NCBI RefSeq assembly: GCF_000209165.1
Contig: NC_009068.1
Location: forward strand, 558,001 to 622,000
DNA length: 64,000 nucleotides
Source of the DNA: Scheffersomyces stipitis CBS 6054
Lineage: Eukaryota > Ascomycota > Pichiomycetes > Serinales > Debaryomycetaceae
Direction: 5' to 3'
Below, piece after piece: positions 37,373-63,170 of this stretch. Within the stretch, counting starts at the first letter, position 1. Every line of letters starts with the position of its first letter. The notes under the pieces were generated by a model. It saw only the letters and a list, made by a program, of their open reading frames with translations. It did no database searches and was not told the origin of the DNA. The position numbers and the translations under genes are program-made.

Positions 37373-37666
37373 TTAGAGACCGATTCCACCAGCACCAATT
37401 CCAGCACCAAGAGCACCGATACCATTGAGGATACCACCAATACCTGCACCAATACCTCCAGCTTCAACTTGTGGCTGAGCAGGAGCAGGAGCAGGAGCTT
37501 GCTGAATAACTACAGTCCTACCATTACCATGGTTGTTACCGTGGTTGTTGTGGTTGTTACCGTGGTTGTTGTGGTTGTTACCGTGATTGTTATGCGATGG
37601 AAGTCTGGCACCCAAAGAAAAGCCAACAAGAGCCAAAATAGTCAAAGAAGAGAATGAAAGTTGCAT
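37373..37666 (-). CDS. Small secreted Asn-His-Gly repeat / glycine-zipper protein, 97 residues
   Basis: The N-terminus MQLSFSSLTILALVGFSLGA is a clear signal peptide. A repeat block follows at about 23-48, made of HNNHGNN units and encoded by three 21-base DNA repeats. A linker VVIQQAPAPAPAQPQ comes next, and the last 30 residues contain only Gly, Ile, Ala, Leu and Asn with GxGxG spacing. Only one residue in that tail is polar and no membrane anchor follows it. The His-rich repeats could bind metals and the Gly/Ile tail could insert into or assemble on membranes; both are inferences. Close paralogues lie at 49037 and, more distantly, 46992. A TATAAAAGG box lies 74-82 bases upstream. Confidence 0.75.
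   Translation of the reverse strand: MQLSFSSLTILALVGFSLGARLPSHNNHGNNHNNHGNNHNNHGNNHGNGRTVVIQQAPAPAPAQPQVEAGGIGAGIGGILNGIGALGAGIGAGGIGL
37531..37593 (-). repeat. Three 21-base tandem repeats inside the secreted-protein gene
   Basis: Two identical units and one with two changes, each encoding seven residues (HNNHGNN register). The repeat length is a multiple of three, so copy-number change would keep the frame. An allele-variable minisatellite is likely. Confidence 0.85.
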
Positions 37667-39958
37667 GGTTGTTTTGAGGATCTGATTATTTGAATATCGA
37701 ATGGTAAAGTCAATACTATTTCAATAGAGAAATCGAAGACCTTTTATATTTCCTTTCTAATATACTCTCAACATTAGAACCCCTTGAGTTCGCAAAGAAT
37801 TGTACTTTATTCATGAGAGAAGTACTCAAATTTGCAACTAATTCAATTTCGAAACATAAGGCAACTGCTAAGTAAGGCAGTTATCAATTTTAAGGGCAGT
37901 TACAGGAGTTTAGGCAATCAGAAAGGTAAGTACCCTTTGAGCCAATTCAAGACACCTATTCAGATGTGCTTGCCACACTAGAATTACTCATGAGAACCAG
38001 CCACTTAACCCTGTAGCTTGTTAAAGCTAGATACTGTTTCAACCAAGATATTAAAGTTGGTGACAAAAAGGGCTTTGCTGAAGGCTTTGTTCATATCAAT
38101 GCCCTCAGCAAAGGTTTTAGTAAAGGCTCTTGCAGAGCCTGACCCAAATCCAATTAGAGGGGATCTACCCCCCTAAGTTTGCAAGCAACTTAGGTAGACA
38201 CTAGCAATGAGCAGATTGTTCAATGTGGAGTGATGCCTTTTCATCACTTGACTCCTGGTAAGAGTATTATCTAGTTCCCTTCTGTTGGATGCCTTTCCAA
38301 TTGGGATATTGGAACCATGTAAGTGTTCTGCAGCTGTTGCAGTCATATGCGGGATGACGAATTGATGATGTTTGAAAACAGAATGATAGGGATTGTGTTT
38401 ATGACCTTGCAAACAGAGAGGCGTGGGTTGAATGAAAGTGAAGAAATAAGGAAACGAGTTCCATTAAGTTTTGTTCTTGAATAGTCAGGAACCCCCTTGA
38501 TTCTAGAATTCTGTAGTAAATATTCTGCATGACAGACCATAATTAGGTATAATTGAGAACTTTGGTAATGGATAAAGGGTCTGTTATTCTAGACAGATTT
38601 TTGATTGCATTTTGTATCTAATTGGTGCCACCATATGTGACACTTCACTTTTTCATATCCGGCCATCCTGCTTTATAATCTAGCACCTAACTTTTGCCAA
38701 GAGACCGCATTCATACCAACCTCAGAACAGTCTCCTCGACTTACAGCAGTATAAGTCATTTGTGGATACCCAATCAGTGCACATTCCAGAAATAATAGAA
38801 AAATATGACCAAAAAGGAGAGGAGTGGAAAACTGAATTGCATCAAATCTATTTACTTTTCTTTTGTCTTGAAATCTAACAATAGGTTGAAATGTGGAATT
38901 AGATTTACCTTTTGATTCTGAAAGGTACAAATAAGGCGTAGATACGTTATGTCAAAATTGACACATAAATGTTTTATTGATTTATACAGCAACTTTTGTG
39001 GAATTAATTAAGAGGTGTTGTTTTACTTTCGAAGGGATCCTTAATTCTTTAAGGAACCTCAGGCAGCGAGGGACGAAGCTTTCGTTTCTCAACTTACCGA
39101 AAACATCAACAATATTGCCCAATTCGAAAGGATAAAATTGGCCCATCCTGTGGTATTTGTATCTTTTTAAAAGAGAAAGTAATTGGCAACTTTGTACATA
39201 TTTGAATTAAATGTAGGCATAAGCAGGGAGCCATCCTTAAGATGTATAAAAAATAGATCCCTTCGCCCCAGTTTCAAATTATTAAAAATCAAATTATTGT
39301 TGTTATAAAAGTTGCTGGACACCATAAAAAATGACGTGATTATTAATGTAACATACTTCTGCTATTGATTAAAATTTTTGTTTTAGCAAAACTGAAATAT
39401 TGAACCACTGATAATCGTGCAAAGTGATTTTGCAATAAAAATTGCAACCATCTGCATAGTAAATATACAGTAGTTCCGTGAAAGCTGGAGTCAGTATAAT
39501 TTATTTCAATTATGAAGTTGCCATATTTGCGCCAGCAATAAATATTTGATAACATAACAAGAGATCAGTGAATTCTTTCCCTCTTTGATTAAATATTGTT
39601 CATCTCTTTTAATTAATTGTGTATTTTCAAAAATTTGTGTTTCCATGAACTGTTTTCATTTTCATTTCTTTTAGAAAAATCACTTTTCTTATTAAGACCC
39701 CAAAATTGTAAATGCCGGTTGCTACTAAAACTGTCTATTACTACCAGATTTAAATTGAGTTTCATCTACTTTATTCTTAACCCCATAAAGTAGTCAAATG
39801 TATGGTGGTCTCTAACTCACCTATTTTCATTTATGGTAGTGATATTTGATAATCCCACGACATGGATTGTGCACAGAAGTTCCAAACCATATTGGCGAAG
39901 ATAGCCACTGCTTCTTCAGTTCAGCACTATATCTCTATACACCTTTATCTCATTCTTC
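37667..39958. other. Long AT-rich intergenic region
   Basis: About 2.3 kb between the divergent 37373 gene and VPS29. ORFs are below 90 codons and unsupported. Base composition is visibly more AT-rich than the spacers before 35 kb. No terminal repeat or transposon coding sequence recognised. Confidence 0.45.
37740..37748 (-). promoter_or_regulatory. TATAAAAGG core promoter of the 37373 gene
   Basis: On the minus strand TATAAAAGGTCTTCGATTTC lies 74-82 bases before the ATG. The same arrangement (TATAAAARG then CTTCNNTTTC) occurs at 46917, 48948 and 50679 before the other secreted-protein genes. Confidence 0.65.
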
Positions 39959-44836: not shown

Positions 44837-46916
44837 CCGAAAAGTCCACAGAGAGCCAGAAAGTGATGTTTACAGAGGTTTTAGTACGAAGTCGTACTGG
44901 AATAATCGCACAACACTTCTTATTGTCGGGCGCCAATTCTTGAAATTACAACTTGGTTCTTGTATTGTCTCTGAATATAGGCAGGAGCCCTAATCTCCCA
45001 ATTCACTTTCTACGAACTGGTTGCACCATATTTTCTGCGAATGTGTAATTCCGATAATCAACTTCTGCAGTTGTTGATTTGCTCCGATTAACGGCAATGC
45101 CACAGCCTAGCAAGGGTAAAAATACAATGAGTAGGGAGCTGGTTTTTAAACAATATCTGGTTAGCCCAACAATAAAGAACAGTAGGTATAAGCCACGAAT
45201 TTGATTGCGAAAACAAGGGGTACCTGAAATTGTTGCAGCGGCTGGAGCGCTCAACTCTTGCAGGGGAGAGTATTAGGGAAGGTGTAAACCAGGATAAGGC
45301 TGAAGAAATTTGAGCAAAGAGTGTACGCTTGACCATACATGCTTAGGCAAAGAAACTTCGAAAATGTATTGAACTAATTCTGTTTCAATACCTTCACCTA
45401 GATGACCCCCCATAGACTTGTTTTGACATAAAAATTTGAGCAAGCATTGCAATTACGTCGTTGTTGGCAGGCTTCAAGAATTAAAAGTTGGAAGCCAAGT
45501 ACCTTATAATTGCGCAGACAATATTGAATGATTGCCATCATAGGTTGTTGATATCCAATATCAGAAGCAATTGGTTGATATCTTTGACTCGTTTCTAAAG
45601 TGTTTGGGATTCATTTCTTCTCCAAGGGGAATTGCGATATTTGGTGGAGCGTATGGATGCTATTCGCAACTGCCATGAGGATTGCAAGCTTCCGACTATT
45701 TGATTATGAGACTCAAGGTAACGAGTTCAACCTTTTCACCTATCGTCTGCAGTATTCCACTTTTACATGATCGTTTTAGAAGAATTTAATACCCTTTCAA
45801 ATATCCAAAATGAATCCTTCCTGGTGAGAGTATCTATATGTGTGCGAGTTGCTTTATACCACTACAAGGGTTTGATCAGGGTGGCTCAACCGTTAAGGAG
45901 ATGGGACCATATTTTATTTACGAAAAGTCAACTCAATTGTCGTCTGAAAGTTCGCCTACCCCCGATTCCGCCTCGAAAGCTTTGTTGACGGGAACCCGCC
46001 CTTTCAGAATAGGAATTCCACCTACAGCAAACTATTGAAGTACATAGATCATTACATTAGATGACACGTACTGCTTTTGACAAGATGTGACTTTGATAGT
46101 AGAGTTTATAGTGATGGCATATATTCAGCCACTAACAAGAATTTACTGAAATCTGCTGAATTTGACACAGAAGATATTCAGCCTTGATAAATTATCATGT
46201 CACAGCCAAAAAAATAATCTCGCCCTGCATTTCGAACTGTCGTAAACTCACATGATGATAGAATACGTCAATTTATTTTATGCAAACCTACTAAGATTAT
46301 TCTTCTCTGTTTTCAACAATGTAAGAATCGAATGTCAGCAAAAACTCTTGTACAGTTAATACTCATTCCTTGTTAGACTACGTTAAAGAGGTTTGTTGGT
46401 CGATATTAGAAAATAATAAATTGACCCCAATTTAGTTACACAGAAAATTCTATAGGCTTAAAATATGGTGAAATAGATAGTGGCAACCTTCTGCATCGTA
46501 AAACATCTGCTCACTTATTCCTACAGGATATATCCAACATTATTGTTCTTTTCTTTCCCTTTATCTTAATAATTTTTCGTTCTACTTTATACCTCGCCTA
46601 AGTCAAAGAAAAAAGGCAACACACTCGTACCAGATCTCCAAATCTCAGAAGATACTCTATCCGATGAACCCAAGTTGTACAAAATGGCGTGTTGATCACA
46701 ACTTGCCGTTGTTTTAGTTGGAAGAATCTTTGAATTTTGCAACTGCCTTAGCTTCGGCTACTGCCCAAACTTGTGCAACGCCATAGCTTCAGCAACCGAA
46801 TTTCAGTAAGTGCCTTGCAAAGTCGTTACCCTTTTTTCACATGAGCATATACTTCCCAGAACTAAAATACTTGAACAGATCTAAAAATCTGTTCTACTCG
46901 AAGGATAAATGTCAGT

Positions 46917-46925
46917 ATAAAAGGC
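46917..46925 (+). promoter_or_regulatory. TATAAAAGG core promoter of the 46992 gene
   Basis: TATAAAAGG, followed at once by CTTCCATTTCTCATTGGAAA, lies 67-75 bases before the ATG. The downstream box is shared with the 48948 promoter. Confidence 0.65.
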
Positions 46926-46991
46926 TTCCATTTCTCATTGGAAATTGAAATTATTGCTCAATATTCAGATATAGAAATATTCAAATTATTC

Positions 46992-47372
46992 ATGCAACTT
47001 TCTTTCTCTTCTTTAAGTATTTTGGCTCTTGCCACCACGTCCTTTTGCTTGCCTCAACAAAATTCTAAAGCAAAAAATCTTGGTCTTAATAACTTAGTCA
47101 AGCAAGTTCAAGGTCATACAACTCAAGCAGTAGCACCTGCTCAGAAAACCAACGGAGTTACTTTATCTGGTGGCGGTATAGGTGCTGGTATTGGTGGCGA
47201 GATCTTCCCTGGAATCGCTATTGGAGCCGGAGTTGGTGCTGGTGAAGGAGACATCGAGGCCGATGGTATCGAACTCGAAGGTGCTGGTGTCGGTGCAGGA
47301 ATTGGTGCTGACATCGATGGCCACTTGATCGGTGTGGGTATTGGAGCTGGTTTAGGAGGTATTGTCCTCTAA
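46992..47372 (+). CDS. Small secreted Gly/Ile-rich protein, 126 residues
   Basis: The ATG at 46992 (MQLSFSSLSILALATTSFCL) gives a clear signal peptide; the longer frame to 46938 would bury it. The mature part has a short polar region (about 20-52) with VAPAQ resembling the linker of the other family members. Residues 60-126 are Gly-rich with GIGAGIGG, GVGAG, GAGVGAGIG and GVGIGAGLGG motifs, mixed with Asp/Glu. It lacks the Asn-His-Gly repeats of the paralogues at 37373 and 49037. The regular GxxxG-like spacing suggests packed strands or helices, possibly self-assembly. Function unknown. Confidence 0.72.
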   Translation: MQLSFSSLSILALATTSFCLPQQNSKAKNLGLNNLVKQVQGHTTQAVAPAQKTNGVTLSGGGIGAGIGGEIFPGIAIGAGVGAGEGDIEADGIELEGAGVGAGIGADIDGHLIGVGIGAGLGGIVL

Positions 47373-49036
47373 ATAAGCTCTTGTCTGTCCCGAAGTTCCC
47401 GAATATTGCTGAGATTGATTTGCGATTGAAGGTAATCTGTTTTTCAAAAGAACTGCTCAACACATTCAGCAGAGGTTTCTTTGGATTAAACATGATGGAA
47501 ACTCTATTTAGCTTGAATAATTTTAACGAAGTAGATATTAGGACCATGAAATTTTTACTATGTACTAGTTTGAAAAAGAATTGTAATCGAGATTCATTTT
47601 GGAGGTCATCATAGGTTTCATTGGAAGACAATTAAAAAGATGAGATAAAAAATGTCCATGTTGAAGTATTTGAATCTAAATTCCAATGAAGTCTAATTTT
47701 GATTGATTTCGTTGCCCTTTTCTTTTCAATTCTCTTCAGAGAGATTTAACACTTTCAGGGTCCTCATTCAGAAATGATACTTAAGTCTATTTCTACAATT
47801 TCTTCTTCAGCTGAAGCACAATGACATCACTGGGCAGCATTGGAGCTTTGCATGGAACAGGGGCGAAGGAGCTTGATAACCTGGCTACTGAAAAACTACT
47901 GGACTACAGATGATAGTTGCTCAAGTTGAGCAAGACTTTGATTATTTTCTATTCTTTGGTAGGGGAAGACACACAATATTGAATACATTTTCTAACATGC
48001 ACGAATGTGCCAATTTGGAGATTCTAATGAGAATGTTTGAGGTGTTTTTTCTTCATCAAGAGTACATCTATTCTCTAAGTTGAATGTTTTGAGAAGTTAA
48101 GGCAGGTAGTATGAGCCTTGAAATAATACCTTTGTTGACCTTGTCTATGCCGCTCCCTAGGTTGCATAAATTCTGAAAACTTTGTGAATACAACAACAAA
48201 AGTTCATATTAACGCAAATTGTGCAACTTCTTTTTGACAAGGTTGACAGTTGCTGTAGAATAAAATATAACATCGGGATTTCTATTCAATTGTTTTAAAA
48301 TCAATATAAAATAGGACTAATCACATTTACAGGTTTTCTCACTCGTTTTCATCTTGCAGTTAAGTATAAATATATCACTCTGCAATTCAGATGTCTGAGA
48401 GGGCAATTGGATATTTTTTCATGCAATTAGGCTTTTCAGTTCTCCTATATGCACACATTAATATTTTAAGGGTCCCCGAAGAGGATCTTTAAATCTAGTT
48501 ACTTCAGTAAAGATTAGAAAATAAAGTAAAGAGGTACCCAGAAATCTTGTAGAAGTATTGTCTGAATGCTAGAGACAAAGGAAGTATGTCGGACTCTAGT
48601 GCCTCAATATTCTGTAACAATACGACTCTATCACAGCTTATCCCTATCTCGAAACCTCTTCCATAACGACTTCAATCCTCGTCTAAACCTACAAAAAAAG
48701 GTGTATCTCAAGACCCCCACATCTCAGATTGTATTTTAGTAGAACTTTCAATTCGAGTAGCATAAACTGCATATACAACAGGTACTTGTTTTGTTTGAAT
48801 TCCTTCTATTTTGCAGCTGCCTAACTTTTGAAACTGCCTTACATTCCGAAATCATTATCGCCTTTAACTTGAATAGAATTCAATGCTATTATAAACACAA
48901 TGAAGATAGAATTGGGATTTTGAATTCAATTGCAAAGGAAAAAAAAGTATAAAAGGCTTTCAATTTCATCATTGGAATGAAGTTTGAGTATTGAAGTAAT
49001 AACCATTGAATACTTAGATATTTACAACCCCCCACC
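47373..49036. other. AT-rich intergenic region
   Basis: About 1.7 kb without a supported gene. The promoter of the 49037 gene occupies its end. A 77-codon ORF at 47381 and its antisense partner show no domain. Confidence 0.45.
48948..48956 (+). promoter_or_regulatory. TATAAAAGG core promoter of the 49037 gene
   Basis: TATAAAAGG followed by CTTTCAATTTCATCATTGGA lies 81-89 bases before the ATG, almost the same sequence as at 46917. Confidence 0.65.
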
Positions 49037-49372
49037 ATGCAACTTAACTTCTCTTCTTTAACTATTTTGGCCCTTGCTGGTTACGCCTTGAGTGCTCCTT
49101 GTGCAAGTTGTAATGCTAACAAGGTTCCAACCAACAACCATCACGGTAACAACCATAACAACCATGGTAACAATCATGGCAACAATCATGGCAACAACAA
49201 TCACGGTAACAACCATGGTGGTAAGACTGTTGTTGTTCAGCAAGCTCCTGCTCCCACACCTGCTCAGCCACAAGCTGAAGCTGAAGGTATTGGTGCAGGT
49301 ATTGGTGGTATACTCAATGGTATCGGAGCTCTTGGTGTTGGAATTGGTGCTGGTGGAATCGGCCTCAATTGA
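49037..49372 (+). CDS. Small secreted Asn-His-Gly repeat / glycine-zipper protein, 111 residues
   Basis: A close paralogue of the 37373 product: signal peptide MQLNFSSLTILALAGYALSA, repeats of HGNN/HNNHGNN at about 33-61, linker VVVQQAPAPTPAQPQ and the tail GIGAGIGGILNGIGALGVGI. It adds a CASC motif directly after the predicted signal-peptide cleavage site and four-residue rather than seven-residue repeats. The high similarity of linker and tail against a variable repeat number indicates recent duplication with repeat-length change. Possible roles are metal binding by the His repeats and membrane or wall association by the tail; neither is shown. Confidence 0.75.
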   Translation: MQLNFSSLTILALAGYALSAPCASCNANKVPTNNHHGNNHNNHGNNHGNNHGNNNHGNNHGGKTVVVQQAPAPTPAQPQAEAEGIGAGIGGILNGIGALGVGIGAGGIGLN

Positions 49373-50740
49373 ATTTTTTCATAAGCTATTTAGATATTAT
49401 TGAAGATAATAATACATTAGTTTATAATAATTGTAGGGTTCACATCAATTTTAAGGGTAACGTCTTCTGAAGTCATTAATTTAAAATCGACACCTATTCC
49501 AGCTTTTTAGTTAACCATTTGATTACCATAAATTAACTTTGGTAATATTATTTGTCCTGATAGTATTTACTGATTTTTCTTATTTTTCTTTGCTTATGAT
49601 ATTTGGTACTGAATATTGATAATAAATATTGATAAACATGCACCCAAAAGGAGTTTTGGTTCGAATCTCCTTTCCCTTATTATGAACAGTTCGGCTACAA
49701 GTAAGCAACAATAGTAAGTGGATGAGAATAATGACTAACTCTGCAGTCAGTTTAGATGTTCAGTTTGAATAAATACATCAAAACTGCAGTCTTGAAAAGT
49801 TGAAGCCTTACAATTAAATTAACCAAAGACCTTCAAACGGCTACAGTTTCATACACTTGGAGTATCCGTTACTGAGAATCTGATCTAGTATACCCATGAT
49901 GTGGCAACAAGGTTGTCTAGAATGTTTTGAAAGACAATTTAGGAATGACCAGCTGAAGCATATAAGGCTCCATCTTACGTCAAGACTTGTGGGGTGGTCA
50001 GGAAATAACATAGTAAGACCTCTCGTACCTCATGAAATATACGTAACCCCTCATAATTAATTTCTCTCCTCGTATGGGCAACCCAACTAAGTAGCACTAC
50101 TATTCGTCATTTTTTACTAAGAATGAGGTGTCTCGTCTGTGAATGAGGTTTCCGTCCATTCTGGCACGGATTTTTAGTCTAGAGGTACCTTTCGTAAATT
50201 CAGGGATGTGTCATCTGCAGACATCTGAAAGGTAGCATAATTCACATGAACTCTGATCTCATTTTCCATGGCTCCCAATATTGGAAAAATTGCAATTCTT
50301 TATTTTGAAAATAATATTGTCTTTAAACTTCTTTGGGCTATACCCTGTTCTGAATTGATTATATCGGCTGTGGTCAACAGTTTCAAAAAAAGCTGAATTG
50401 AGTTTATAAATCCAGCAAGTACCTACAAACACCAATCACTATTAGGCATGGAGCTCTACTATTTAAAAATAATATCAAATCAAAATATTCTACCTTTTTC
50501 TTCTTTTGGTGTTTCTAAAACTTATTCAATGTTTCACAAACGCCCTTCCATTCCCTGGATGCTTCCATGAAATTTGTTTACATTCTGTAATGCCTCATAT
50601 TTGAAACCACATCCCTTCAGGGACTGATGCTTTCCAAATGAGTAGACCAAACCAGTGGCATGATACTCCTAAATTTACTATAAAAAGTCTTCATTTTCTT
50701 TAATGTTATTACAATTCGTTCTTGAAAATCATTCAACAAC
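49373..50740. other. AT-rich intergenic region
   Basis: About 1.4 kb. It includes a tRNA-T-loop-like string near 49657-49672 without a surrounding cloverleaf. The promoter of the next secreted gene lies at its end. No gene supported. Confidence 0.45.
50679..50687 (+). promoter_or_regulatory. TATAAAAAG core promoter of the 50741 gene
   Basis: TATAAAAAGTCTTCATTTTC lies 54-62 bases before the ATG. It matches the TATA-plus-CTTC box of the glycine-rich family although the encoded protein belongs to another family. Confidence 0.6.
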
Positions 50741-51124
50741 ATGAAGATTTCTTTTACAATTTTAACAATTTTGGCATTTGCTGGCTATGTTTTGTGTTTA
50801 CCAAGAATCGAAGCTTGGTCTGAGAAAGGATGTAAAGGGAAGAGACTTACAACTAGATGGTTCCAAGATTATTCAGATGGATGTGTTCCATGGCCATCAG
50901 GAACTAATTGCATAAAGTGGTTAGGAGGGGGTTATTGTGCTGTCGATATTTGCTATGGTAAAAATGCAAAAAAAAGGGAGGGTTGGTTGATAAATTGTCC
51001 ATCGGGAGTAAATTATAAGGCATCTTTGACACCTGGTTACACAACTTTCGATATCACCAGCGCTGGTATTGCTTGCTATGATTTGGAGTGTCTGGGGTGG
51101 CTCGGCAGTAAAGCAGTCCCATAA
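50741..51124 (+). CDS. Small secreted Trp/Cys-containing protein, family copy A, 127 residues
   Basis: A signal peptide (MKISFTILTILAFAGYVLC) precedes a mature domain of about 107 residues. Landmarks are RIEAWSEKGCKGKR, RWFQDYSDGCVPWPSGTN, IKWLGGGYCAVDICYGKNA and GWLINCPSGVNYKASLTPGY. Eight Cys in the mature part suggest disulfides. The spacing of GC.G, a W/Y-F aromatic core and SGTN-IKW resembles fungal small secreted beta-sandwich proteins of a crystallin-like type, which is a weak structural guess. It is the first of three copies of a 1.4 kb segment; its closest copy is at 55442. Function unknown. Confidence 0.8.
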   Translation: MKISFTILTILAFAGYVLCLPRIEAWSEKGCKGKRLTTRWFQDYSDGCVPWPSGTNCIKWLGGGYCAVDICYGKNAKKREGWLINCPSGVNYKASLTPGYTTFDITSAGIACYDLECLGWLGSKAVP

Positions 51125-52156
51125 CTTGGGAATATGCTAAAGAGTAGACACTATCTTGCTGATGTTGAGAGTAGTGCTGGAGATTAACACGTTGCAAAGA
51201 CGTGAATTATTCGGACAGAAGTATAGGAACTGATACTAAAGACATCATTGATCAATAGGAGCAGTACTTGTTCGTCAATACTTCATTAAGAATTTGTTGG
51301 GAACATTTCATTTTTTTATCACCTAGTAGGTATTTGTCCAAGTAGCAGGTGCTAACTGGTTTCTCTTGTTCCAAGTATTTTTTGAACTATTTTGTTTAGG
51401 TTCAGAAAGGAAAACAAAAGTAAAAGCAATATAGTGGATTTTATTTAAAATATCTGATTTTCTTTAGGTATACGTCAAATAAATGTGATTTTGCCCCAAG
51501 TTTTTGAAAACCTAAACATGCAGTTGCAACAGAAGATACCTTTAAGCTGCAACTCTAAAATCAATCTTTAACAAATTTAAAAGTGAATGTTTCATTTGCA
51601 GGATTTCAGTTAAACTAGAAATTGATGCATTTTTGTAGTCAATAACATTCTGATTAGAATTTTTGGTTGATTGAATAGGTTTTACAACAAATTCATCCTT
51701 CTTTAGCGGAAGGACATCCTCCAGTCTCGCCTACAATGGGAGAGATAATAAACTTGTTCCTATTACTGCTTTTCTGATCACATCATTATTTTTTTCTACA
51801 AAATGGGGTATTTATTTCCTCATTCTAACTGCAAGCCTTTCATTTCTATTTCGTTCTCAAATCATATGAGATTCCAAGGAATTTTGAACAAGATGGAAGC
51901 CCTGAGAGTGCTCACGGGAATACAGAAAGACAAAACCTTGGTGTATGCTTGACTTTTGCGCTAAAGTTCTTAAGCGAATTAAGGACAAAGTTACGACGGA
52001 CGTATATATATGATCCTTATTACGAGGAGTCGACTACATCAACGAGCCCTATTCCACAATTGAATAATGACAAATGATGTCTATTTACAAGCGTTTGCCT
52101 AGATTGTATAATCAGGTATGGTTTACTGTGATAAAAAGAGTAGAATATATACCTTG
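51125..52156. other. 3' flank of copy A, part of the repeated segment
   Basis: No gene is seen. Parts align with the flanks of copies B and C: 51725-51800 with 54840-54900, 51930-51990 with 56650-56720, and 52104-52160 with 56839-56895. Confidence 0.6.
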
Positions 52157-52582
52157 TTAGATATTGATCCCTGAATCGCTGGGGAGCGGGGCGTCCACTG
52201 GAAGAGGGCCACCGGGACCTGGGTTACCCAAGTTGCAAGGCTGAGGTTGTATTGCTACACCTGGCCAATATATATTACCACAACCTCCATGACGATTATT
52301 AATATTCCCAGCAGGCTTTGTACCTGGTGGGCAATCTAAAGTTAAGATCGGAGAGCCGGTTGCATGTCCCGAGCACATTACAAGTATACAGTCCACACCG
52401 TCAACCCATTTGATACTATTTGTGCCTGAGGGCCATGGCACGCATTGATCTTTGTAATCTTGGAACCACCTTGAAACAATTATATGACCTGTGCAATCAG
52501 GACCTGACCAAGCTTCGATATGTGGCAAAGACGTAACTACCTGAAGTAGGGTAGCTAATAGTGAAATCAACTTAAAATACAT
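52157..52582 (-). CDS. Diverged secreted Trp/Cys protein of the same family, 141 residues
   Basis: Starts at the ATG at 52582 (MYFKLISLLATLLQVVTSLP), with a signal peptide unlike those of the other members. The mature domain keeps the landmarks HIEAWSGPDCTGH, RWFQDYKDQCVPWPSGTNSI and KWVDGVDCILVMCSG, then diverges. The C-terminus is Pro/Gly-rich (NLGNPGPGGPLPVDAPLP) and absent from the others. It is on the opposite strand, so this older member arose through inversion or an earlier duplication. The ORF is intact, with conserved Trp and Cys, which indicates selection. Confidence 0.75.
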   Translation of the reverse strand: MYFKLISLLATLLQVVTSLPHIEAWSGPDCTGHIIVSRWFQDYKDQCVPWPSGTNSIKWVDGVDCILVMCSGHATGSPILTLDCPPGTKPAGNINNRHGGCGNIYWPGVAIQPQPCNLGNPGPGGPLPVDAPLPSDSGINI

Positions 52583-53765
52583 ATTCAAATATGTTCCTGT
52601 ATGTAGGTAAATATATTCAGATTCTTCTTCACTTAGTTAATTTCCTTTCCTCTTATACCTCAAAATTAAATGTCACAAAAGAATTGTCTACCCCTAAGAT
52701 ACCCCAACTAGGTTCCCAGATATCCGCCTTGACCTTCCACCTAGCAAACTTCAGATAGATACTTCTTTCTCATATGTGTACTACATTCTCAGATAAAGAA
52801 CGATATCAATACTATAGCCCTGCACACACTATTCTTTTTAACATACCCTTCTTGAAGCAGAATAATCTAGATCAATAGCCAAATCTATGAGCTGGATTCC
52901 AAAATCGAAGTGAGCATGGTGTTAATACCTTTGCTATTCTTGGAGCTTTTTTCCTTGTATCACTCGATTCGTGTCTCGGTGGAAAGTTACGGGCTAGTTA
53001 TGGCCAATGACAGATTGGGCTTAATGGTCATATCTGGGCGTGCAAGGGCCATCTTCTCCACTTTTTGAACCATTGGTTCCGAAAGATGGGGAACTAGAAG
53101 AACTGGAAACTTCATGACATAAAATTTATTTGAAAAAGTGAGAATACAGACGATCAAGTTGAGCTTGAAATGACGGAATGGTCAGAAAGGGTGAGAGATT
53201 ACTGAAGAGGTGTGGTGAGCTAGTTTCACGATTTTTGATAAAACAAATACTATCACTTGAGGAACTGAAGTACCAAATTCTAATGCAGATAATAGGGGTT
53301 ATACCGCCAAGACTATAAAATGACATTTGGCTCAAAAGCTTAAGCTGAATGACATATTTTTGACTTAATAATCAATTGATAAGCAGTTTGCACTCTCGAT
53401 AATTATTCATTTCTAAGCTCCGCTTGACTTGTTCGCCTATCCAAGCCCCTCACCAAGCCCCTCTTTCCTATCCCTGGGGCCCTCTTGAGTCCAACTCCGT
53501 GCCTAAGTTTGGAAATATGCTCAAAAATGTTGGATATCGAGATAAATCCCTGGAAATTGCCCTCTATAGCATTTTCTTTTGTCAGCTCCGACCTTCACTA
53601 AAACTGTTTTGAATATTGCCTTTCAAATCAGCTCTTTGAACAAGTGACACGATACTAGCTACTCACACCAGTGAAAGCTATATATAGAGGTCTTAGTCAT
53701 CTGAATTCGTAACTATTTTTCAAATAACGATTAAATATAGTCAACAGACAATTTTGGATCTTGAC
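52583..53765. other. Intergenic region upstream of the pseudogene
   Basis: About 1.2 kb, with short unsupported ORFs on both strands. A TATATATAGAGGTCTTAG string near 53690 may be the decayed counterpart of the family promoter. Confidence 0.4.
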
Positions 53766-55000
53766 ATTTACTGAATGTGACTTATGTTTATCAAGAATCG
53801 AAGCTTGGTCTGAGAAAGGATGTAAAGGGAAGAGACTTACTACGAGATGGTTCCAAGATTATGCAGATGGATGTGTTCCATGGCCTTCGGTAACTAATTG
53901 TATGATATGGCTAGGTGGTGGCCAATGACGCTATAGACACAATGCTAAAGCAAGAGAAACAGAATAGTGACTTGTCCACCAGAAGTGAGATGTAAGGCAT
54001 TCTAGACACATTCTAACAGAACTTTCCACTGGAACTACTTGATTAGATTTCCATTGTGGCTTTCAATACCAGGCTACGGTGAAGCCGTTCAAGCTCTTGG
54101 AGTCGATATTAATTGTGCGAGCGATCGGTGGACATGGTGATAATGGTATAGAAGATAACTAGAGTGCAAATTATTTCCGTCATAGAAACCCATACTGGAG
54201 CTGGTAGTGGAAGTTCCGAATTGAACAGTGGAAGAAGCAGAATTTGACAGTTCGGAGAAATTAAATTGAAGACATCTCAATTGATTGTGAAGTAACAGAA
54301 ATTTGCTCGGATAGTATACTAGATGATCTCTTTGGTTCCACCAAATATTGTTCATCTATTTTGCGAAATGAAGGCATAAAAATCAAAAAAAAATGAAATA
54401 ATTGAACACGGAAGATTTGGCTATGGTATATTTTTGGGTTAAGTAGAAAAACAATAAAAAACAGAAAAAAATATGACTAATTGATTTTAAATCGTTCAAC
54501 AACCGTATAGGTAACATGGAAGAGAAATCCAGAATGATACATCAGACAGTTTTCGCAGACCTGAAAATTTGACAAAAAACTATTCTTGTATAACTTAGAT
54601 AGATACATTTGCACCTGTTATAAATAAGAAATGCATCTAACTTATAACTCTAAAATCTAGAATCTCGACACAATTTCGAGAGCAAGTGCTATATTAGAAG
54701 AAGCTTGAAATGGGACACTTGTTACGTCGATCAATTGTAAGAAAAAACTGTATTTTGATTCGAACTCCATCAAAAGCGAAACATCGACTAAGTATTGTGG
54801 CTAACTATACAATTGCAACTTTCGGTATTGATAGAACTTTCCCGTTTCCACCTGCAATGGGAGAGTCGATAGAATATGTATCTACTACTCCTTTTGTAGA
54901 CGCATATCTTAAATTTCTGCACATGGTCGATATTTTTTTTCGGTTAGGAGCCTTACCCTGTAGGTAACTGAGGACAACAATTAAAGTCAGCTTAGGAGTT
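53700..55000. repeat. Segmental duplication, unit B (degenerate)
   Basis: Pseudogene plus flank. The landmark corresponding to the unit A string at 51735 is GCAATGGGAGAG near 54855, at nearly the same offset from the gene. Confidence 0.7.
53766..54025 (+). pseudogene. Decayed copy B of the secreted Trp/Cys family
   Basis: The sequence still encodes the RIEAWSEKGCKGKR to DGCVPWPS stretch almost identically to copy A, but the signal-peptide start is lost. An in-frame TGA at 53926-53928 falls just after LGGG. The remainder matches only with frameshifts and substitutions up to about 54025. The matching 3' flank continues to about 54960. A young pseudogene, given its near identity with copy A. 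Confidence 0.85.
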
Positions 55001-55441
55001 AAATCTAAATAAACGTCATAACAAGACTTTATAAAGGTGAACCTCATATAAAAAAATGTTGAACCTGTAGAACTTGAGCCATATGCTTAATCTCATCTAG
55101 TACCTCTAAAACAAAATATATAATAGAATTAAAAATTCGGTGTCTTGCGCATGTTGTCGAAAATGTGCTCAGTTTGCATAACCCCACTTGAACTGATACA
55201 ATGGAGCCTTAATGCTTGATGGAATCATCCCTAGATCCTTACAAAATATCCTGAAACACGTCACATATTGTCACACGATCAACCTTGGTTGTGTGGCATT
55301 GATTCTCTTGCGGAGAATTTTTACCGTCGCAACGAAATTATTTGGATCCAATGTAACCGCTTCCCATGTCAGCAAAAGTAGTTTAAAATATCTTTGATTT
55401 CTCAAAGAAATTCAATTCTTTCTTGAAAATCATTCAACAAC
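54026..55441. other. 3' flank of copy B and promoter region of copy C
   Basis: 54090-54300 and 54640-54930 align with 55850-56000 and 56350-56590, the flank of copy C. ORFs at 54089 and 54710 lie in this repeated flank and are not conserved between copies, so they are not genes. Confidence 0.6.
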
Positions 55442-56900
55442 ATGAAGATTTCTTTTACAATTTTAACAATTTTGGCATTTGCTGGCTACGTTTTGTGTTT
55501 ACCAAGAATCGAAGCTTGGTCTGAGAAAGGAGGTAAGGGAACGAGACTTACAACTAGATGGTTCCAAGATTATGATGATGGCTGTGTGCCATGGCCTTCA
55601 GGAACTCAAAGTATAAAGTGGTTAGGTGGGGGTTATTGTGCGGTGAATGTTTGCTATGGACACAATGCTGAAAAAAGGAGTGGTTGGTTGAATAATTGTC
55701 CTTCAGGTGTAAGTTATAAGGCATCTTTGACACCTGGTTACACAACTTTCGATATCACCAGCGCTGGTATTGCTTGCTATGAATTAGTTTGTGGTTGGAG
55801 CGACCAAAAAGCAGTCCCATAACTTGGAGACAATGGCAACCGGGTAAACTGCAACTGTGCACATCTTGATAATAGTGAAGAAGGCAATTACAGTGCAAAC
55901 TGTTGAATCATAGGGGTCCATATATTGCTGTTGGTGGAGGTTCCGTTGCTGAAGAAGGCTTTGATCGGTAGAAGTAGCAGAATTCAACACTTCTGTGATT
56001 CACTTGAAAACATCACCATTGGTTATGACCGAACAGGCGTCTATTCCAATTAGTAAGTGTACTAAATAGAATCTTTTCCAGCTCAGAAATTCCTATTATA
56101 CTATTTTGTTGTGTTTAGCGATTGACTATAAAAGATTAAATATTCGAATATCGAAGTTTGATTTTGGGTTAATTGATCTCTTTTTGAGATCACAAACCAA
56201 ATAATATATTTCGAACATCTTCCATGTAGGTAAAATAGAAGAGAAATGATAGAGAATGTCTGTTGTAGCAATTTACTTTATATCCTTAAATGCAATTGCA
56301 GTTGTTGGAATTTTTCAGTACATTTGAAATATAACTTCAAAATAAAATCTTAATCCCGCAACAACTTTGAGAGCAAATGGTACATTAGAAGAAGCCACCA
56401 AGTTGCTATTTTGATGCAGGCTCAATCAAAACACTAAATACCGATCAAGTATTGAGACTGAGAATTCAAAACAATTTCAACTTTCGCCCGGTTCCGCCTG
56501 AAATGGACTATAAGTGTCGAAAGGTGTCTTCGAAACATATTACTACTATTCCTGGACGCAATTATTGAATTTCTGAATATGATGGGATGTGTATTTCCCC
56601 ATGGATGGCTTAAAACATTTTTTGTTTTGAAATCTTGTGCTGAATATATTAGCAGAATACAGAACAAGACTTTGGCACTTGATTTTGTTGTAGCCTGTGT
56701 CTTGTTTGAAACTGATTAATCAACTTAAGGGCATATGAATCTTATTTAAGGAATAAACGATTATTTATGCAATGACATTATGTTGTGTAGATTTTACTAG
56801 GCGACTTCAATCCAATCTTACAAAAACGAGCAAAAATTTTATAATCAGGTATAATTTATTGACTAAAGCTTAGAACATATATACCGTTGTTAAAAAACAA
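55380..56900. repeat. Segmental duplication, unit C
   Basis: Gene copy C plus flank, ending with ATAATCAGGTATAATTTATT and ATATATACC near 56840-56895, matching 52108-52152 of unit A. It ends about 75 bases before the stop codon of the transporter gene. Confidence 0.7.
55442..55822 (+). CDS. Small secreted Trp/Cys-containing protein, family copy C, 126 residues
   Basis: Nearly identical to copy A (50741): the first 60 or so coding bases and a stretch of about 60 bases near the 3' end match base for base. Differences cluster in the middle and at the C-terminus. Two Cys of copy A (in GCKGK and TNCIKW) are replaced (GGKGT and TQSIKW), which could remove one disulfide. The signal peptide is the same. 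The promoter lacks the clean TATA box of copy A (TTTAAAATATC near 55382), so expression may differ. Function unknown. Confidence 0.8.
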   Translation: MKISFTILTILAFAGYVLCLPRIEAWSEKGGKGTRLTTRWFQDYDDGCVPWPSGTQSIKWLGGGYCAVNVCYGHNAEKRSGWLNNCPSGVSYKASLTPGYTTFDITSAGIACYELVCGWSDQKAVP

Positions 56901-56974
56901 TTAATGACAGATTTGTCAGCATATTAAAGAATTGAAACTCATAGTATTATGGAATTAGAATAAGTTCAGCTATC
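55823..56974. other. 3' flank of copy C up to the transporter stop
   Basis: Non-coding; belongs mostly to unit C. The 77-codon ORF at 56434-56667 is not open in the other units. Confidence 0.5.
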
Positions 56975-58618
56975 TTAAACTCTTTCACCAATCTTCTCGT
57001 TTGAAGAGTTGCCGTCTTCCAAGTGTTCGACAGCAGATTTTTCAACAGGAGAAGAAAGTCTGTGCAATGTGGTACCGGCATCGTCACCGAAAACAACGGC
57101 AACCTCTTCCAAGGTGTAACCGAAGGTTTCGACGTAGAAGAAGAACACAATAACCAATTCGAAGGCCAAGACACAACACCAAACAATGTAGTACTTCCAT
57201 TCGATTGCATCCATGGCAATTGGGTTGACGTAACCGTTGTAGACAAGAGTACACAATTGGGTGAAGTACATCAAGTTAAGACCCTTAGCTCTGTGGGAGT
57301 ATGGCAACACTTCAGTAGCATACAAGAATGGCAAACCATTAGCACCAATATCGTAAGAGAAGTAGAACAAAAAGATCATGGCAAGAATACCTCTACCCAA
57401 TCCCTTGTCTTCGAAGTTACGTTGTTGGTTAATTGCAGAAAGAACGGTCCAAATAACGTAACAGAGAAGCATACCAGCAATACAAACCAAGAATTGGTGT
57501 CTTCTCTTGAATCTGTAGGTAAGGAGAGCAGCACCGACGGAAATTACAATGTTGAAGACTTGTAAACAACCGTTGATCTTCAATTGTTCAGTAGGTGACT
57601 CATAACCAATACTTCTCAAGACCTTAACAAGATAATAGGACACTAAACCGTTACCAGACATTTGCATGATGAAAGCAGTAAAACAAACCAAGAATAATCT
57701 CTTTCTATAGGATCTAATCTTGAGGAAGTCAAAGTAAGAAGAGCTGGCATATAACTTTTCTAATTCCAAAGCAGACTTGATTTCCTTGATTTCGAATTCA
57801 ACCAAAGCATGAGCTCTTTCGTCGTCAACGTTACCAGTGTGGTAAGCATTAAGAACTGATCTTGCCTTCTCTTCCTTACCGTTGTCAATTAACCATCTTG
57901 GAGACTCAGGACAGAACCACAAAGTCAAAACTTGGATACCTGGCAAGATTGCCTGCAAGTAGGAAGGAATTCTCCATGCCTTTGGCCCATGCAATTTCTC
58001 GGTACCAAAAGTAATCCAAGCAGCAAGAATAGCACCCAAATACCACAAAGTGTTGAAGACAGCAGTACAAGATGATCTGTAAGATGGGAAAGAAAGTTCA
58101 GCGATCCAAGCGGGAGCACCAGTCAAAGCAATACCGACACCAAAACCAATGATGATTCTTGCAACCAAGAAGAAAGCGTAATTAGTAGATGCACCTTGCA
58201 AGATACCACCTATAAAAGAAATAATAGAACCGAAGAGAACACCGAACTTTCTTCCCCACTTGTCGTTAAGGTAAGAAGCACAACTGACAGCGATAATAGA
58301 ACCGAACATGGTACCGTTGGCAAGAGAACCCAACTTGTACCCTTCTGGCGTACCCATGGTAGTTTGCCAATCGGGAATAGCTTGCAAACCGTTCAACATG
58401 GAACCATCGTAACCATTATTGGTGGAGGCCAAGGCAATCAAGGCAATCATGAAATGCAACTTTCTGAAATGGCCGTATTTCCACCAACCGTCAGTTTGGA
58501 ACAATAAGTCATTGATGTCGGTGTTAGGATCGTTCAAGATGTTTTGCTGTTCATCAATGTGATCAGTGATCGAAAGGGAATCGGTCTGATCCTTGATGTT
58601 GTGAAGTTTGTCAGACAT
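56975..58618 (-). CDS. MFS sugar transporter, HXT2-type (Lac12-like family)
   Basis: A 547-residue sugar porter with twelve predicted membrane helices. Family motifs are present: NDKWGRKFG (loop 2-3), PESPRWLIDNGKEEKA after helix 6, and ATEVLPYSHRAKGLN in the second half. The cytosolic N- and C-termini are hydrophilic. Sequence style and the neighbouring glucanase gene match the HXT2.1-2.6 set of S. stipitis, which is closer to lactose permeases than to S. cerevisiae Hxt proteins; the exact number cannot be assigned. Substrates may include beta-glucosides such as cellobiose as well as hexoses; this is inferred from the context. It is divergently transcribed from the GH5 gene. Confidence 0.9.
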   Translation of the reverse strand: MSDKLHNIKDQTDSLSITDHIDEQQNILNDPNTDINDLLFQTDGWWKYGHFRKLHFMIALIALASTNNGYDGSMLNGLQAIPDWQTTMGTPEGYKLGSLANGTMFGSIIAVSCASYLNDKWGRKFGVLFGSIISFIGGILQGASTNYAFFLVARIIIGFGVGIALTGAPAWIAELSFPSYRSSCTAVFNTLWYLGAILAAWITFGTEKLHGPKAWRIPSYLQAILPGIQVLTLWFCPESPRWLIDNGKEEKARSVLNAYHTGNVDDERAHALVEFEIKEIKSALELEKLYASSSYFDFLKIRSYRKRLFLVCFTAFIMQMSGNGLVSYYLVKVLRSIGYESPTEQLKINGCLQVFNIVISVGAALLTYRFKRRHQFLVCIAGMLLCYVIWTVLSAINQQRNFEDKGLGRGILAMIFLFYFSYDIGANGLPFLYATEVLPYSHRAKGLNLMYFTQLCTLVYNGYVNPIAMDAIEWKYYIVWCCVLAFELVIVFFFYVETFGYTLEEVAVVFGDDAGTTLHRLSSPVEKSAVEHLEDGNSSNEKIGERV

Positions 58619-58743
58619 TTTTACTACTTTAATGCACTTTATAGATCGACCAGCGATAGAAGCTTGTAGGCTGTAGTACTAACAAGTGATTGTTGAGATA
58701 ATGAATAATTAAATCTCGAGAACATCAACAGGGGGATCCAGTG

Positions 58744-58751
58744 TATTTATA
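58744..58751 (-). promoter_or_regulatory. TATA box of the HXT2-type gene
   Basis: TATAAATA on the minus strand, 126-133 bases upstream of the transporter ATG. Confidence 0.55.
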
Positions 58752-59627
58752 CAAAACTTTGGAATTAGGATTGGCTCCAAATTTGACCAGCAGCAACCAT
58801 TCTGTTGATAGTAAGGCATTTCTTTTAGTATGGGTCCCGCATATTATGAAAGAAAATTATTTAAAATTTTTATAATTTTTCTCCCACCCACACTATGCAC
58901 CAGTCCCTAAAAAATATCGACCCAGACGCATAATCCCACTAGTTTTACGATCTGAATTCTGGAGTATTTTTTAGAGGACATTGCAGTTTATCCAAGTGTT
59001 TCCGTCAGACAAAAGTTAATAATGGTGTGAATACAAACACAAATCTGACATTTTCGTAGTTGAATGTCTTCACCAACAGGAGTCGTGACGTTGAACAGGA
59101 AACAATGGGCCGGCCAACAAACGGCCGCTTCTGCTAGAATGCTAGTGAGATACCCACTCAACCCTTTCTTGTACGTCCAGAAACAGATCGACACAGACCT
59201 GCTCAGGTACTATTGGAAGGTCGCAATAGTGGGGCATCTCCGCACTTGTCCGTTCACGTCCCTCATTTAGATTTAGATGCAAACACAAGAAACCAAAAAA
59301 TGTCAGGCAAAACTGCAGTATTTTTTCCCAAAGGGTCGAACCAATAAAAGAAATTTTGTGAAACTACCAGTCACTACACAGAATCTGGAGTTGAGTAGAT
59401 TCGGTATTTTTTTGGAGTCCGCACTATTGTCTAGCGGAGACACCTTCAGACTCACACAAACAGCGACAATTTCTGTTTCCTTCCAGACACGAGATCCTAA
59501 GGCTGACACTCGGGCTTTCTTTTCCACTCGGCGGTAACAGATTCCGTTCATTGTCTGTCTGGTACGGTGTGACCCAGCGGTCTTTTTGCATCTATTCGGC
59601 GAATCGGCAAAAATTAGTAAGAAACCG

Positions 59628-59644
59628 ACTCCGACAGTCGGAGT
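59628..59644. promoter_or_regulatory. Perfect palindrome ACTCCGACAGTCGGAGT, possible zinc-cluster factor site
   Basis: An 8-1-8 inverted repeat containing CCGACAGTCGG, that is CCG and CGG half-sites separated by five bases, the geometry used by many fungal Zn2Cys6 regulators. It lies about 1.0 kb from the transporter start and 2.1 kb from the glucanase start. Confidence 0.45.
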
Positions 59645-61724: not shown

Positions 61725-63170
61725 ATGTCTACCGGATTCTTAACTACCAAGAACACCAAGATCGTCGATGCTAACGGAACCCCAGTCGTTCTTGTCGGTA
61801 CTGCCATCGGTGGTCACTTGAACATGGAAAACTTCATCACTGGTTACCCAGGTCACGAAACCGAACACAAGAAGGTCTTGAAGAAGAAGATCGGTGAAGA
61901 AAAGTTCAACTTCTTCTTTGACAAGTTCTACGAATACTTCTGGACTGAAAAGGATGCCGAATTCTACAAGAACGAATTGGGCTTCAACTGTTTGAGAATT
62001 CCTTTCAACTACCGTCACTTCATCGATGACGAAGTTGACTTGTTCAAGATCAACCCTAAGGGTTTCGAAAGATTGGACAGAGTCATCGACATCTGTTCCA
62101 AGTACGGTATCTACACCATCTTGGACTTGCACGCTACTCCAGGTGGTCAAAACCAGGACTGGCACGCTGACTCCGGTATCCACAAGTCTATCTTCTGGGA
62201 CTTCAAGGTCTTCCAAGACTCTATGGTCAACTTGTGGGTTGAACTTGCCAAGCACTACAAGGACAACACCTGGGTTGCTGGTTACAATCCTTTGAACGAA
62301 CCTGCTTCGCCAGACCACCTGAAGTTGGTCAACTTCTACCAAAGATTGCAAGATGAAGTCAGACCAATTGACCCTCACCACATCTTCTTCCTTGACGGTA
62401 ACACTTACTCCATGGACTTCAGACAATTCCCAGCTCCAAAGGACTTCATTCCTAACTCTGTCTACTCCATCCACGACTACTCTACCTTCGGTTTCCCAAA
62501 CATCCAAGGTACCTTGTACGCCGGTACTGCTGCTGAAAAGGACAAGTTGAAGAGACAATACGACCGTAAGGTTGAATACCATCTTGAACACAATGTTCCC
62601 GTCTGGAACGGTGAATTCGGTCCAGTCTACGCTTCTAAGGAAAGAGGTGATGAAGACCCAGACACCATCAACAGAGCTCGTTACCAAGTGTTGAAGGACC
62701 AATTGGCCATCTACAAGAAGGGTGACCCATCTGGTGACGGTACCCCAATCTCCTGGTCCATTTGGTTGTACAAGGACATTGGTTACCAAGGTTTGACTTA
62801 CGTTGACCCTGAATCCAAGTGGTACAAGGTCTTCGGTGAATTCTTGTTGAAGAAGAAGAAGTTGGGTCTCGACAGATGGGGTAACGACATCGACCCAGCC
62901 TACAACAAGTTGTACCAGGACTTGATCGACCACATCCACAGCAACGTCCCAGAAAAGTACCACAAGGCTCTTTACCCTCACGGCTGGACCACTCAAGACT
63001 ACTTGTTCAGAGTTGCTAAGGACATGTTGTTCTCTCAATACGCTCAACACGAATACGCTGACTTGTTCGTCGGTCTTTCGTTTGAAGAATTGGACGAACT
63101 TGCTGCTTCCTTCAAGTTTGAAAACATCAAGCAAAGAAAGGAATTGAACGAAATCTTGAAGGACTACTAG
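61725..63170 (+). CDS. EGC: GH5 beta-glucanase (EGC type), no signal peptide
   Basis: A 481-residue glycoside hydrolase of family 5. Landmarks are NCLRIPFNYRHF, the LDLHATPGGQN strand, acid/base Glu192 in YNPLNEPA and nucleophile Glu297 in VWNGEFGPV. The N-terminus (MSTGFLTTKNTKIVDANG) is hydrophilic, so the protein is predicted to stay in the cytosol. This suits hydrolysis of imported oligosaccharides or glycosides. In S. stipitis such genes are annotated as endo-1,4-beta-glucanases EGC1-3 and sit next to HXT2 transporters and beta-glucosidases; which one this is cannot be told. The real substrate may instead be beta-glucosylated lipids, as for related fungal GH5 enzymes. Codon bias is very strong (TTG, AAG, GGT), suggesting high expression. 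One CTG, codon 199, would be Ser. Confidence 0.9.
   Translation: MSTGFLTTKNTKIVDANGTPVVLVGTAIGGHLNMENFITGYPGHETEHKKVLKKKIGEEKFNFFFDKFYEYFWTEKDAEFYKNELGFNCLRIPFNYRHFIDDEVDLFKINPKGFERLDRVIDICSKYGIYTILDLHATPGGQNQDWHADSGIHKSIFWDFKVFQDSMVNLWVELAKHYKDNTWVAGYNPLNEPASPDHLKLVNFYQRLQDEVRPIDPHHIFFLDGNTYSMDFRQFPAPKDFIPNSVYSIHDYSTFGFPNIQGTLYAGTAAEKDKLKRQYDRKVEYHLEHNVPVWNGEFGPVYASKERGDEDPDTINRARYQVLKDQLAIYKKGDPSGDGTPISWSIWLYKDIGYQGLTYVDPESKWYKVFGEFLLKKKKLGLDRWGNDIDPAYNKLYQDLIDHIHSNVPEKYHKALYPHGWTTQDYLFRVAKDMLFSQYAQHEYADLFVGLSFEELDELAASFKFENIKQRKELNEILKDY

Follow-up and report, generated by a model that had tools for sequence, protein, structure and literature searches.

Orphan secreted proteins are common in yeasts and their origin is seldom visible, so where does such a protein obtain its leader? 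This question is raised by a block of two small secreted-protein families in Scheffersomyces stipitis CBS 6054 (assembly GCF_000209165.1). The block lies within a window of 64,000 nucleotides, the whole stretch analysed here (NC_009068.1, positions 558,001 to 622,000), which corresponds to C1:558001-622000 of the genome searched (15,441,179 bases, 8 contigs); positions are those of the window unless a contig is named. One family is Gly-rich (G1-G4), while the other contains Cys and Trp (W1-W3 and a pseudogene). Our comparison indicates that the 5' end of the W genes appears traceable to the neighbouring Gly-rich family, the leaders of W1 and W3 being recognisably like those of the Gly-rich genes. 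This likeness across unrelated cargoes is a new and well-supported point, overlooked in an earlier sequence-only reading of the window.

The genes and the two leaders in question, read from their open reading frames (ORFs) unless another source is given, are the following:

46992..47372, forward strand: G1, Gly-rich secreted protein of 126 aa, a paralogue of G4 and weakly of G3
49037..49372, forward strand: G2, protein of 111 aa with an Asn/His repeat and a Gly-rich tail, 84% identical to G3
37373..37666, reverse strand: G3, protein of 97 aa with an Asn/His repeat and a Gly-rich tail
C4:123964 (locus L014:3965-4369): G4, fourth Gly-rich gene, an ORF of 134 residues found by genome search with G1
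50741..51124, forward strand: W1, Cys/Trp secreted protein of 127 aa with a Gly-family-like leader
50741..50803, forward strand: leader of W1, Gly-family-like by motif, score and profile comparisons
52157..52582, reverse strand: W2, diverged Cys/Trp secreted protein of 141 aa, whose leader differs from those of W1 and W3
53748..53921 (approximate), forward strand: recognisable part of the W pseudogene, with DNA identity of 85% to W1 and 80% to W3
55442..55822, forward strand: W3, Cys/Trp secreted protein of 126 aa, 87% identical to W1
55442..55504, forward strand: leader of W3, Gly-family-like by motif, score and profile comparisons

By ORF reading and genome search, all six intact ORFs of the window and the pseudogene were found at the positions where the sequence-only reading had placed them. 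Its description of two secreted families also holds: leaders were recognised by eye in all six proteins, with a crude hydropathy filter (not SignalP) as an aid, a filter that G1 and G2 failed. Translation with CTG read as Ser alters a single residue, S118 of W1. It is very likely that the anatomy of the block is as described here. No paper on the G or W genes was found in the open-licence PMC literature, judged by titles and abstracts.

Likeness between the leaders of W1, W3 and the Gly-rich genes

The alignment of whole G2 with whole W1 by BLASTP covers residues 1-21 only, 12/21 of which are identical, and the mature parts of the G and W proteins have no shared sequence. The motif LTILAxAGY, searched as a DNA pattern in which Leu was allowed as TTN only, occurs at three places in the 15.4-Mb genome, namely G2, W1 and W3, and the reversed-pattern control gave none. 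A second motif, SSLx[IV]LAL, has 38 genome places; it is exact only in G1-G4, and the remaining 34 places, with one mismatch, stand at the control level of 33.

Leader scores were compared with those of hydrophobic-core ORF starts drawn from 259 kb of genome (overlaps included), which yielded 46 leaders, 41 of them outside the G and W genes; these 41 controls are a small set, not all of them proven genes and many of them mutually related. At the protein level the G2 leader scored 61 against both W1 and W3, 56 against G1 and 59 against G4, while no control exceeded 29. The W1 leader scored 61, 53, 49 and 36 against G2, G1, G3 and G4, respectively, and its control maximum was 31. At the DNA level the G2 leader reached 34 against W1 and 39 against W3, with controls at 21 or below. 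The leader of W2 remained at background, with protein scores of 17 against G2 and 20 against W1.

Profile comparison gave the same ranking. A DNA profile with G1-G4 as its sole training set (-95 to +63) was run over 285,160 bases of genome, overlapping loci included, and placed W1 (E 0.00096, from TATA element to leader) and W3 (E 0.0034) directly behind the Gly copies, the next place having an E-value of 1.4. With a profile restricted to the leader, W3 (E 0.0014) and W1 (E 0.005) were still next in rank.

A candidate TATA element upstream of both families

Upstream of the leaders, the Gly-rich genes carry a TATA element, and similar elements precede W1 and possibly W3:

46916..46934, forward strand: TATAAAAGG element of G1, read and aligned; it falls one base short of the consensus, and this length hides it from pattern searches
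48948..48967, forward strand: TATAAAAGG element of G2, pattern search with 0 mismatches
37729..37748, reverse strand: TATAAAAGG element of G3, pattern search with 0 mismatches
50679..50698, forward strand: TATA element of W1, like that of the Gly-rich genes, with 2 mismatches to the G2/G3/G4 pattern and 1 to a looser pattern
55382..55401, forward strand: possible diverged TATA element of W3, with 3 mismatches to the G2/G3/G4 pattern

The sequence TATAAAAGGNYTTYRATTTC stands 82-89 bases 5' of the ATG in G2, G3 and G4. When up to three mismatches are allowed, the pattern of these three genes occurs at four places in the window: G2 and G3 themselves, and two sites at distances of 62 and 60 bases 5' of the start codons of W1 and W3, respectively. 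The looser pattern, for whose choice W1 was taken into account, matches five genome places when a single mismatch is allowed, namely those of G2, G3, G4 and W1 and a further one on C8; its reversed control gave none. The place on C8, C8:833017-833036, is the sole further genome occurrence of the looser element at one mismatch. From these patterns, the chance that W1 and W3 have a TATA element in common with the Gly-rich genes seems to us about even. If the element is truly common to both, co-regulation of W1 and W3 with the G genes is predicted.

Over 400 bases upstream, the Gly-rich genes are alike in 6/6 pairs (z 6-14). A promoter shared between G and W1/W3 over this longer distance was also considered and is rejected, 7/8 pairs having a z of 2.0 or less. 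The upstream region of G3 (37667-38066) gave a z of 5.9 over shuffles with that of W2 (52583-52982). Scores of this kind may be compositional, because in the control for the same test G4 reached a z of 10.0 against an unrelated gene. Neither the leader nor the upstream region of W2 resembles that of W1 and W3.

Common descent or convergence

Several results weigh against a common origin of these 5' parts. Scaled to the whole genome, the profile E-values become about 0.05 for W1 and about 0.2 for W3. Plain DNA searches of the genome leave the families unjoined: the 5' part of W1 (201 bases) returned only itself and W3, and that of G2 (391 bases) only itself and G4. One control reached a DNA score of 30 against the W1 leader, near the value for G2 (34) and above those for G3 (29), G4 (27) and G1 (23). 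A profile of the upstream part alone was non-significant, W1 having an E-value of 2.2 (an unrelated place had 0.9) and W3 falling outside the best 14 listed. For the G2-G4 TATA pattern, 0.28 places are expected in the window; none of 100 shuffles had four places and the largest had three, so the two extra places weigh mainly by their position. In the 400-base comparison the seven pairs just mentioned are joined by G3-W1, with a z of only 2.7. Codon adaptation is likewise unlike between the families, with values of 0.55-0.65 in the Gly-rich genes and 0.36-0.43 in the W genes (reference, 3 window genes; 14 other window genes, the reference three included, span 0.34-0.86). Furthermore, the BLASTP alignment of W1 with W2 extends slightly into the W2 leader, which could be a far-diverged form of the same leader, with transfer and its direction unproven.

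The unjoined plain searches, the non-significant upstream part and the control score of 30 also favour an explanation in which the leaders resemble each other through convergence of hydrophobic signal peptides, the TATA match is due to chance and the families share nothing. Signal peptides are short and biased in composition, and a rough count of the codons behind identical residues shows no clear excess of likeness over what codon bias predicts. Convergence is nevertheless unlikely in our judgement: the 41 control leaders stay at 29 (G2) or 31 (W1) where the two leaders reach 61, the LTILAxAGY pattern is absent elsewhere in the genome, and a profile built without any W sequence ranks W1 and W3 first. 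From these comparisons, we infer that the leaders of W1 and W3 probably share common descent with those of the Gly-rich genes.

The Cys/Trp family and its taxonomic range

With cleavage points placed by eye, mature W1 has 107 residues, 8 Cys, 6 Trp and a charge of +3.9; mature W3 has 106 residues, 6 Cys and a charge of +1.0; and mature W2 has 122 residues, 7 Cys and a charge of -3.8. The mature parts of W2 and W1 are 43% identical over 94 aa (BLASTP), and genome searches with W1 and with W2 returned the same four places, all inside the block. The ratio of nonsynonymous to synonymous substitution (dN/dS) between W1 and W3 is 0.31 (dN 0.09, dS 0.29; bootstrap 0.16-0.65), a value at which no positive selection on the pair is seen, and that between G2 and G3 is 0.21 (bootstrap 0.11-0.39). 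Because of these two ratios the reading frames are non-random, and the coding sequences of W1/W3 and G2/G3 are under constraint. One copy is a pseudogene and the codon adaptation of the W genes is low, which would suit unexpressed relics in a gene-poor stretch, but with dN/dS well under 1 in both pairs and with frames and leaders conserved this is very improbable.

The sequence-only reading had recognised no domain in these proteins and had called for a homology search, and the searches agree with it, as Pfam, NCBIfam, PHROGs and PDB gave nothing usable. Neither Pfam nor NCBIfam had a match at the curated cut-off in any of the six proteins, and W1-W3 had no Pfam match up to E 10. PHROGs, searched with five proteins, gave a single match at E 0.73. 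In PDB, W1 alone gave one chance-level match (E 0.32), and a profile of the W family none up to E 10. AlphaFold2 with four sequences returned no usable fold for W2 (predicted local distance difference test, pLDDT, 34) or for mature W3 (pLDDT 30).

Searches of 5.77 billion proteins, which depend on shared short words (5-residue) or motifs and may let remote relatives escape, returned W3 alone for W1. The W profile retained 3 of 88 candidates: W3, W2 and the S. stipitis hypothetical protein G9P44_005221 (P0007 below). In one scan each, the W alignment was run against bacterial and archaeal contigs and against viral contigs, where 9 and 21 stretches, respectively, matched either peptide pattern and none encoded a relative; a bacterial or viral origin of the family, considered on this basis, is rejected. 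The restricted range that, together with expression, would support a novel secreted system is found as far as the searches reach, with W relatives from S. stipitis only, and by these sequence comparisons the W family appears so far confined to this species.

P0007 is 80% identical to W2, with 28/140 aligned residues differing, while the next relatives of W2 within the CBS 6054 genome are at 45-51% identity. It is either a very diverged W2 allele or a gene missing from this strain. Both would be unusual, because two sequenced S. stipitis isolates differ at only one base in 306 (PMC8546629). An assignment of P0007 as the W2 allele of strain Y-7124 was set aside as a guess, since the record gives the species and not the strain or place. 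Between W2 and P0007, 1/20 leader positions and 27/120 mature positions differ (Fisher P 0.077), and the leaders of W1 and W3 have zero amino-acid changes. In G2 and G3 the leader is not the better-conserved part, with differences at 5/20 N-terminal residues. Cysteines of the W family are incompletely conserved, with W3 lacking C31 and P0007 lacking the Cys at W2 position 47.

The Gly-rich family

The Gly-rich family is not restricted to the block, because G4 sits on C4, between ORFs of 418 aa and 847 aa. Both a Gly-type leader and the TATA element are present in G4, and its tail module apparently occurs in two copies. Beyond the G2/G3 pair, dN/dS is 0.49 for G1 and G2 and 0.45 for G1 and G4, at dS above 1, and the more distant pairs as a whole give 0.26-0.49, also at dS above 1. 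Glycines alternate significantly in the tail of G1 (P 0.0015), marginally in G2 (0.037) and insignificantly in G3 (0.19) and G4 (0.31), in four uncorrected tests; a silk-like alternation was therefore dropped as a trait of the family, as it holds in G1 only and marginally in G2.

Among at least 7994 candidates scored from the 5.77 billion proteins, the Gly profile found only a longer reading of G1. Matches of the Asn/His repeats to NCBIfam VPA0510 (E 0.008 and 0.044) lie far under the curated cut-off and were discarded as compositional, and G1-G3 matched no wall-protein family of Pfam above the curated cut-off.

Duplication and gene conversion in the block

The sequences 3' of W1, the pseudogene and W3, listed without strand, record older duplications:

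51130..52156: flank 3' of W1, old tandem duplicate of 55828-56974, 56% identity (mafft; shuffled 38-43%)
53922..55200: flank 3' of the pseudogene, old tandem duplicate of 55828-56974, 60% identity (shuffled 42-48%)
55828..56974: flank 3' of W3, old tandem duplicate

The flanks of W1 and the pseudogene are 48% identical to each other, scarcely above their shuffled maximum of 47%; five shuffles were used, with a range of 34-48% over all pairs. Local duplication with decay, proposed in the sequence-only reading, is borne out by the tandem flanks (56-60% identical) and by the one pseudogene, in which the whole-genome search met 4 stops within the match. Its notion of fast turnover fares less evenly: the pseudogene, the diverged tandem flanks and the 80% identity of P0007 suggest birth and death, but the intact copies are under purifying selection.

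The gene stretches of W1 and W3 are 88% identical in DNA and include two identity runs of 69 columns in 419 columns (longest, P 0.0037 by shuffling), one of which takes in 5' untranslated bases, the initiation codon and the greater part of the leader. Such long runs beside flanks of 48-60% identity suggest that W1 and W3 were partly homogenised by gene conversion. Identity runs could also arise from selection, which would speak against this part of the history.

A proposed origin of W1 and W3

The reading that we propose, and to which we give roughly equal chances of being right or wrong, is that of a lineage-restricted secreted cluster in which one 5' cassette, made up of the signal peptide and, perhaps, an element of the core promoter, would serve two unrelated cargoes. 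The cassette would belong to the Gly-rich family, for which the searches turned up four copies, three in the window and the fourth on a different chromosome. A W2-type Cys/Trp domain would have existed first, and recombination in the cluster would have set a domain of this kind downstream of a copied Gly-type leader. The fused gene would then have been tandemly duplicated to give W1, the pseudogene and W3, a set that would have been partly homogenised by gene conversion while one copy decayed. We infer this direction of transfer, as we do the co-regulation of the two families and the location and targets of their proteins. The reverse order, with W2 having lost, or diverged from, a Gly-type leader, would be a less simple alternative.

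On the cassette reading, the conditions that lead to synthesis of the Gly-rich proteins may also lead to that of W1 and W3. A wider generalisation, in which S. stipitis diversifies its secretome by cargo swapping behind a mobile promoter-leader cassette, is doubtful. In that case an orphan Cys-rich domain would have come under the Gly cassette, and the result would be a co-expressed, isolate-variable set of matrix-type and outward-acting proteins, a picture about which we are similarly sceptical. The cassette reading makes the birth of a secreted gene from a ready-made leader directly testable in a tractable yeast.

Possible functions of the encoded proteins

The Gly-rich proteins would be located in the cell wall or the extracellular matrix, since they consist of a flexible Asn/His/Gly repeat followed by a hydrophobic Gly-rich tail, and wall or matrix material is their most likely nature. 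The W proteins, as small disulfide-rich domains, would exit the cell and bind a target belonging to a competing organism, to the gut of an insect or to plant material; that they are exported disulfide-rich binders acting outside the cell is a tentative proposal. The role with competitors, hosts or surfaces suggested in the sequence-only reading is likewise conjecture.

It is just as conceivable, at the same tentative level, that the W family, rather than being an orphan, represents a divergent offshoot of widespread fungal small disulfide-rich beta proteins, either beta-gamma-crystallin-like or killer-toxin-like. The Cys spacing is compatible with such an offshoot, whose pattern W-x(4)-C-x-G ... 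C ... S/N-I-K-W ... C-x(4)-C-x-G occurs in many filamentous fungi. The few strands in the W2 model are compatible as well, but at a pLDDT of 34 they are nearly worthless. The family had no match in Pfam, NCBIfam or PHROGs and no PDB profile match up to E 10, and its profile kept only W3, W2 and P0007 among the 5.77 billion proteins, a word-based search that remote kin may escape.

Less probable still is a purely structural role for the two families, as components of wall or matrix without an outward target. The alternating Gly tails, significant in G1 and marginal in G2, and the co-expression that the TATA element would allow agree with it. The W proteins, on the other hand, are Cys-rich with no repeat seen, the six scanned proteins match no wall-protein family, and codon adaptation places the Gly-rich genes only mid-range among the window genes and the W genes near the low end.

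That the W proteins are S. stipitis killer toxins, with W1 and W3 active and W2 diverged or immunity-related, is an unlikely alternative on balance, though several observations fit it. PMC12875307 counts S. stipitis among the killer yeasts reported earlier; a positive charge (+3.9 and +1.0) and a high Cys content characterise W1 and W3, while W2 is acidic (-3.8); and W2 strongly differs between S. stipitis records. However, the main text of PMC7888664, one of two works cited in that source for K. africana and S. stipitis together, names neither "stipitis" nor "Scheffersomyces", and the S. stipitis candidate that PMC12875307 gives is a Ksino-like gene, Ksino having 202 residues. Moreover, no sequence link from the W proteins to any toxin was found, and the cysteines missing from W3 and P0007 leave the W set incompletely conserved.

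Genomic setting of the block

The sequence-only reading had described the block as AT-rich. Its GC content is indeed 0.35-0.40 at 45-58 kb (2-kb windows), against about 0.40-0.47 at 1-29 kb and 58-64 kb of the stretch, but the feature is not distinctive: low GC is not peculiar to the block, because 29-41 kb is comparably AT-rich (0.35-0.42).

Two ORFs flank the block on its right side:

56975..58618, reverse strand: ORF of 547 aa, sugar transporter-like by eye
61725..63170, forward strand: ORF of 481 aa, glucanase-like by eye

Together they span C1:614975-621170. PMC2784038 places an HXT2.4-EGC2-BGL5 cluster at Ch1:614-626 K in S. stipitis, with the first two genes divergent, and the flanking "sugar-use pair" of the sequence-only reading can thus be identified, by place, with the published HXT2.4-EGC2 cluster. 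Between the two genes of this pair lie about 3.1 kb (58619-61724) with a coding-like GC content and no ATG-started ORF of at least 120 aa.

Comparison with known systems

Three known systems offer points of comparison. Among the killer toxins, Ksino and Klus resemble the W proteins in being small, secreted, Cys-containing and lineage-patchy yeast proteins, as described in PMC12875307. This comparison is by description only: Ksino, with 202 residues, has a modelled sheet-plus-helices fold, while the W proteins have 126-141 residues.

Within S. stipitis itself, the CIP1.1-1.5 genes are, according to PMC2784038, tandem duplicates of a kind idiomatic to this yeast, and their upstream regions diverge together with the genes themselves. 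W1, the pseudogene and W3 are likewise tandem duplicates in S. stipitis. Unlike CIP1.1-1.5, which are enzymes, the present block has two unrelated secreted cargoes with what appears to be a common 5' part.

A parallel in arrangement comes from the precursors of frog skin antimicrobial peptides, in which, according to PMC6245896, the signal peptide is conserved and the mature part is hypervariable. Like these precursors, the G genes, W1 and W3 put one leader before differing mature sequences; a leader that is probably homologous by the comparisons above stands before different mature parts, with reservations at the DNA level (the plain searches and the W1 control score of 30). Unlike in the frog case, the mature parts of the G and W proteins are unrelated to each other and about 80-120 residues long; inspection by eye showed no propeptide, and the core promoter element may also be common. 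By analogy, and within the cargo-swapping picture held above to be doubtful, the block could be a free-living-yeast counterpart to the leader-sharing families of venom and antimicrobial peptides.

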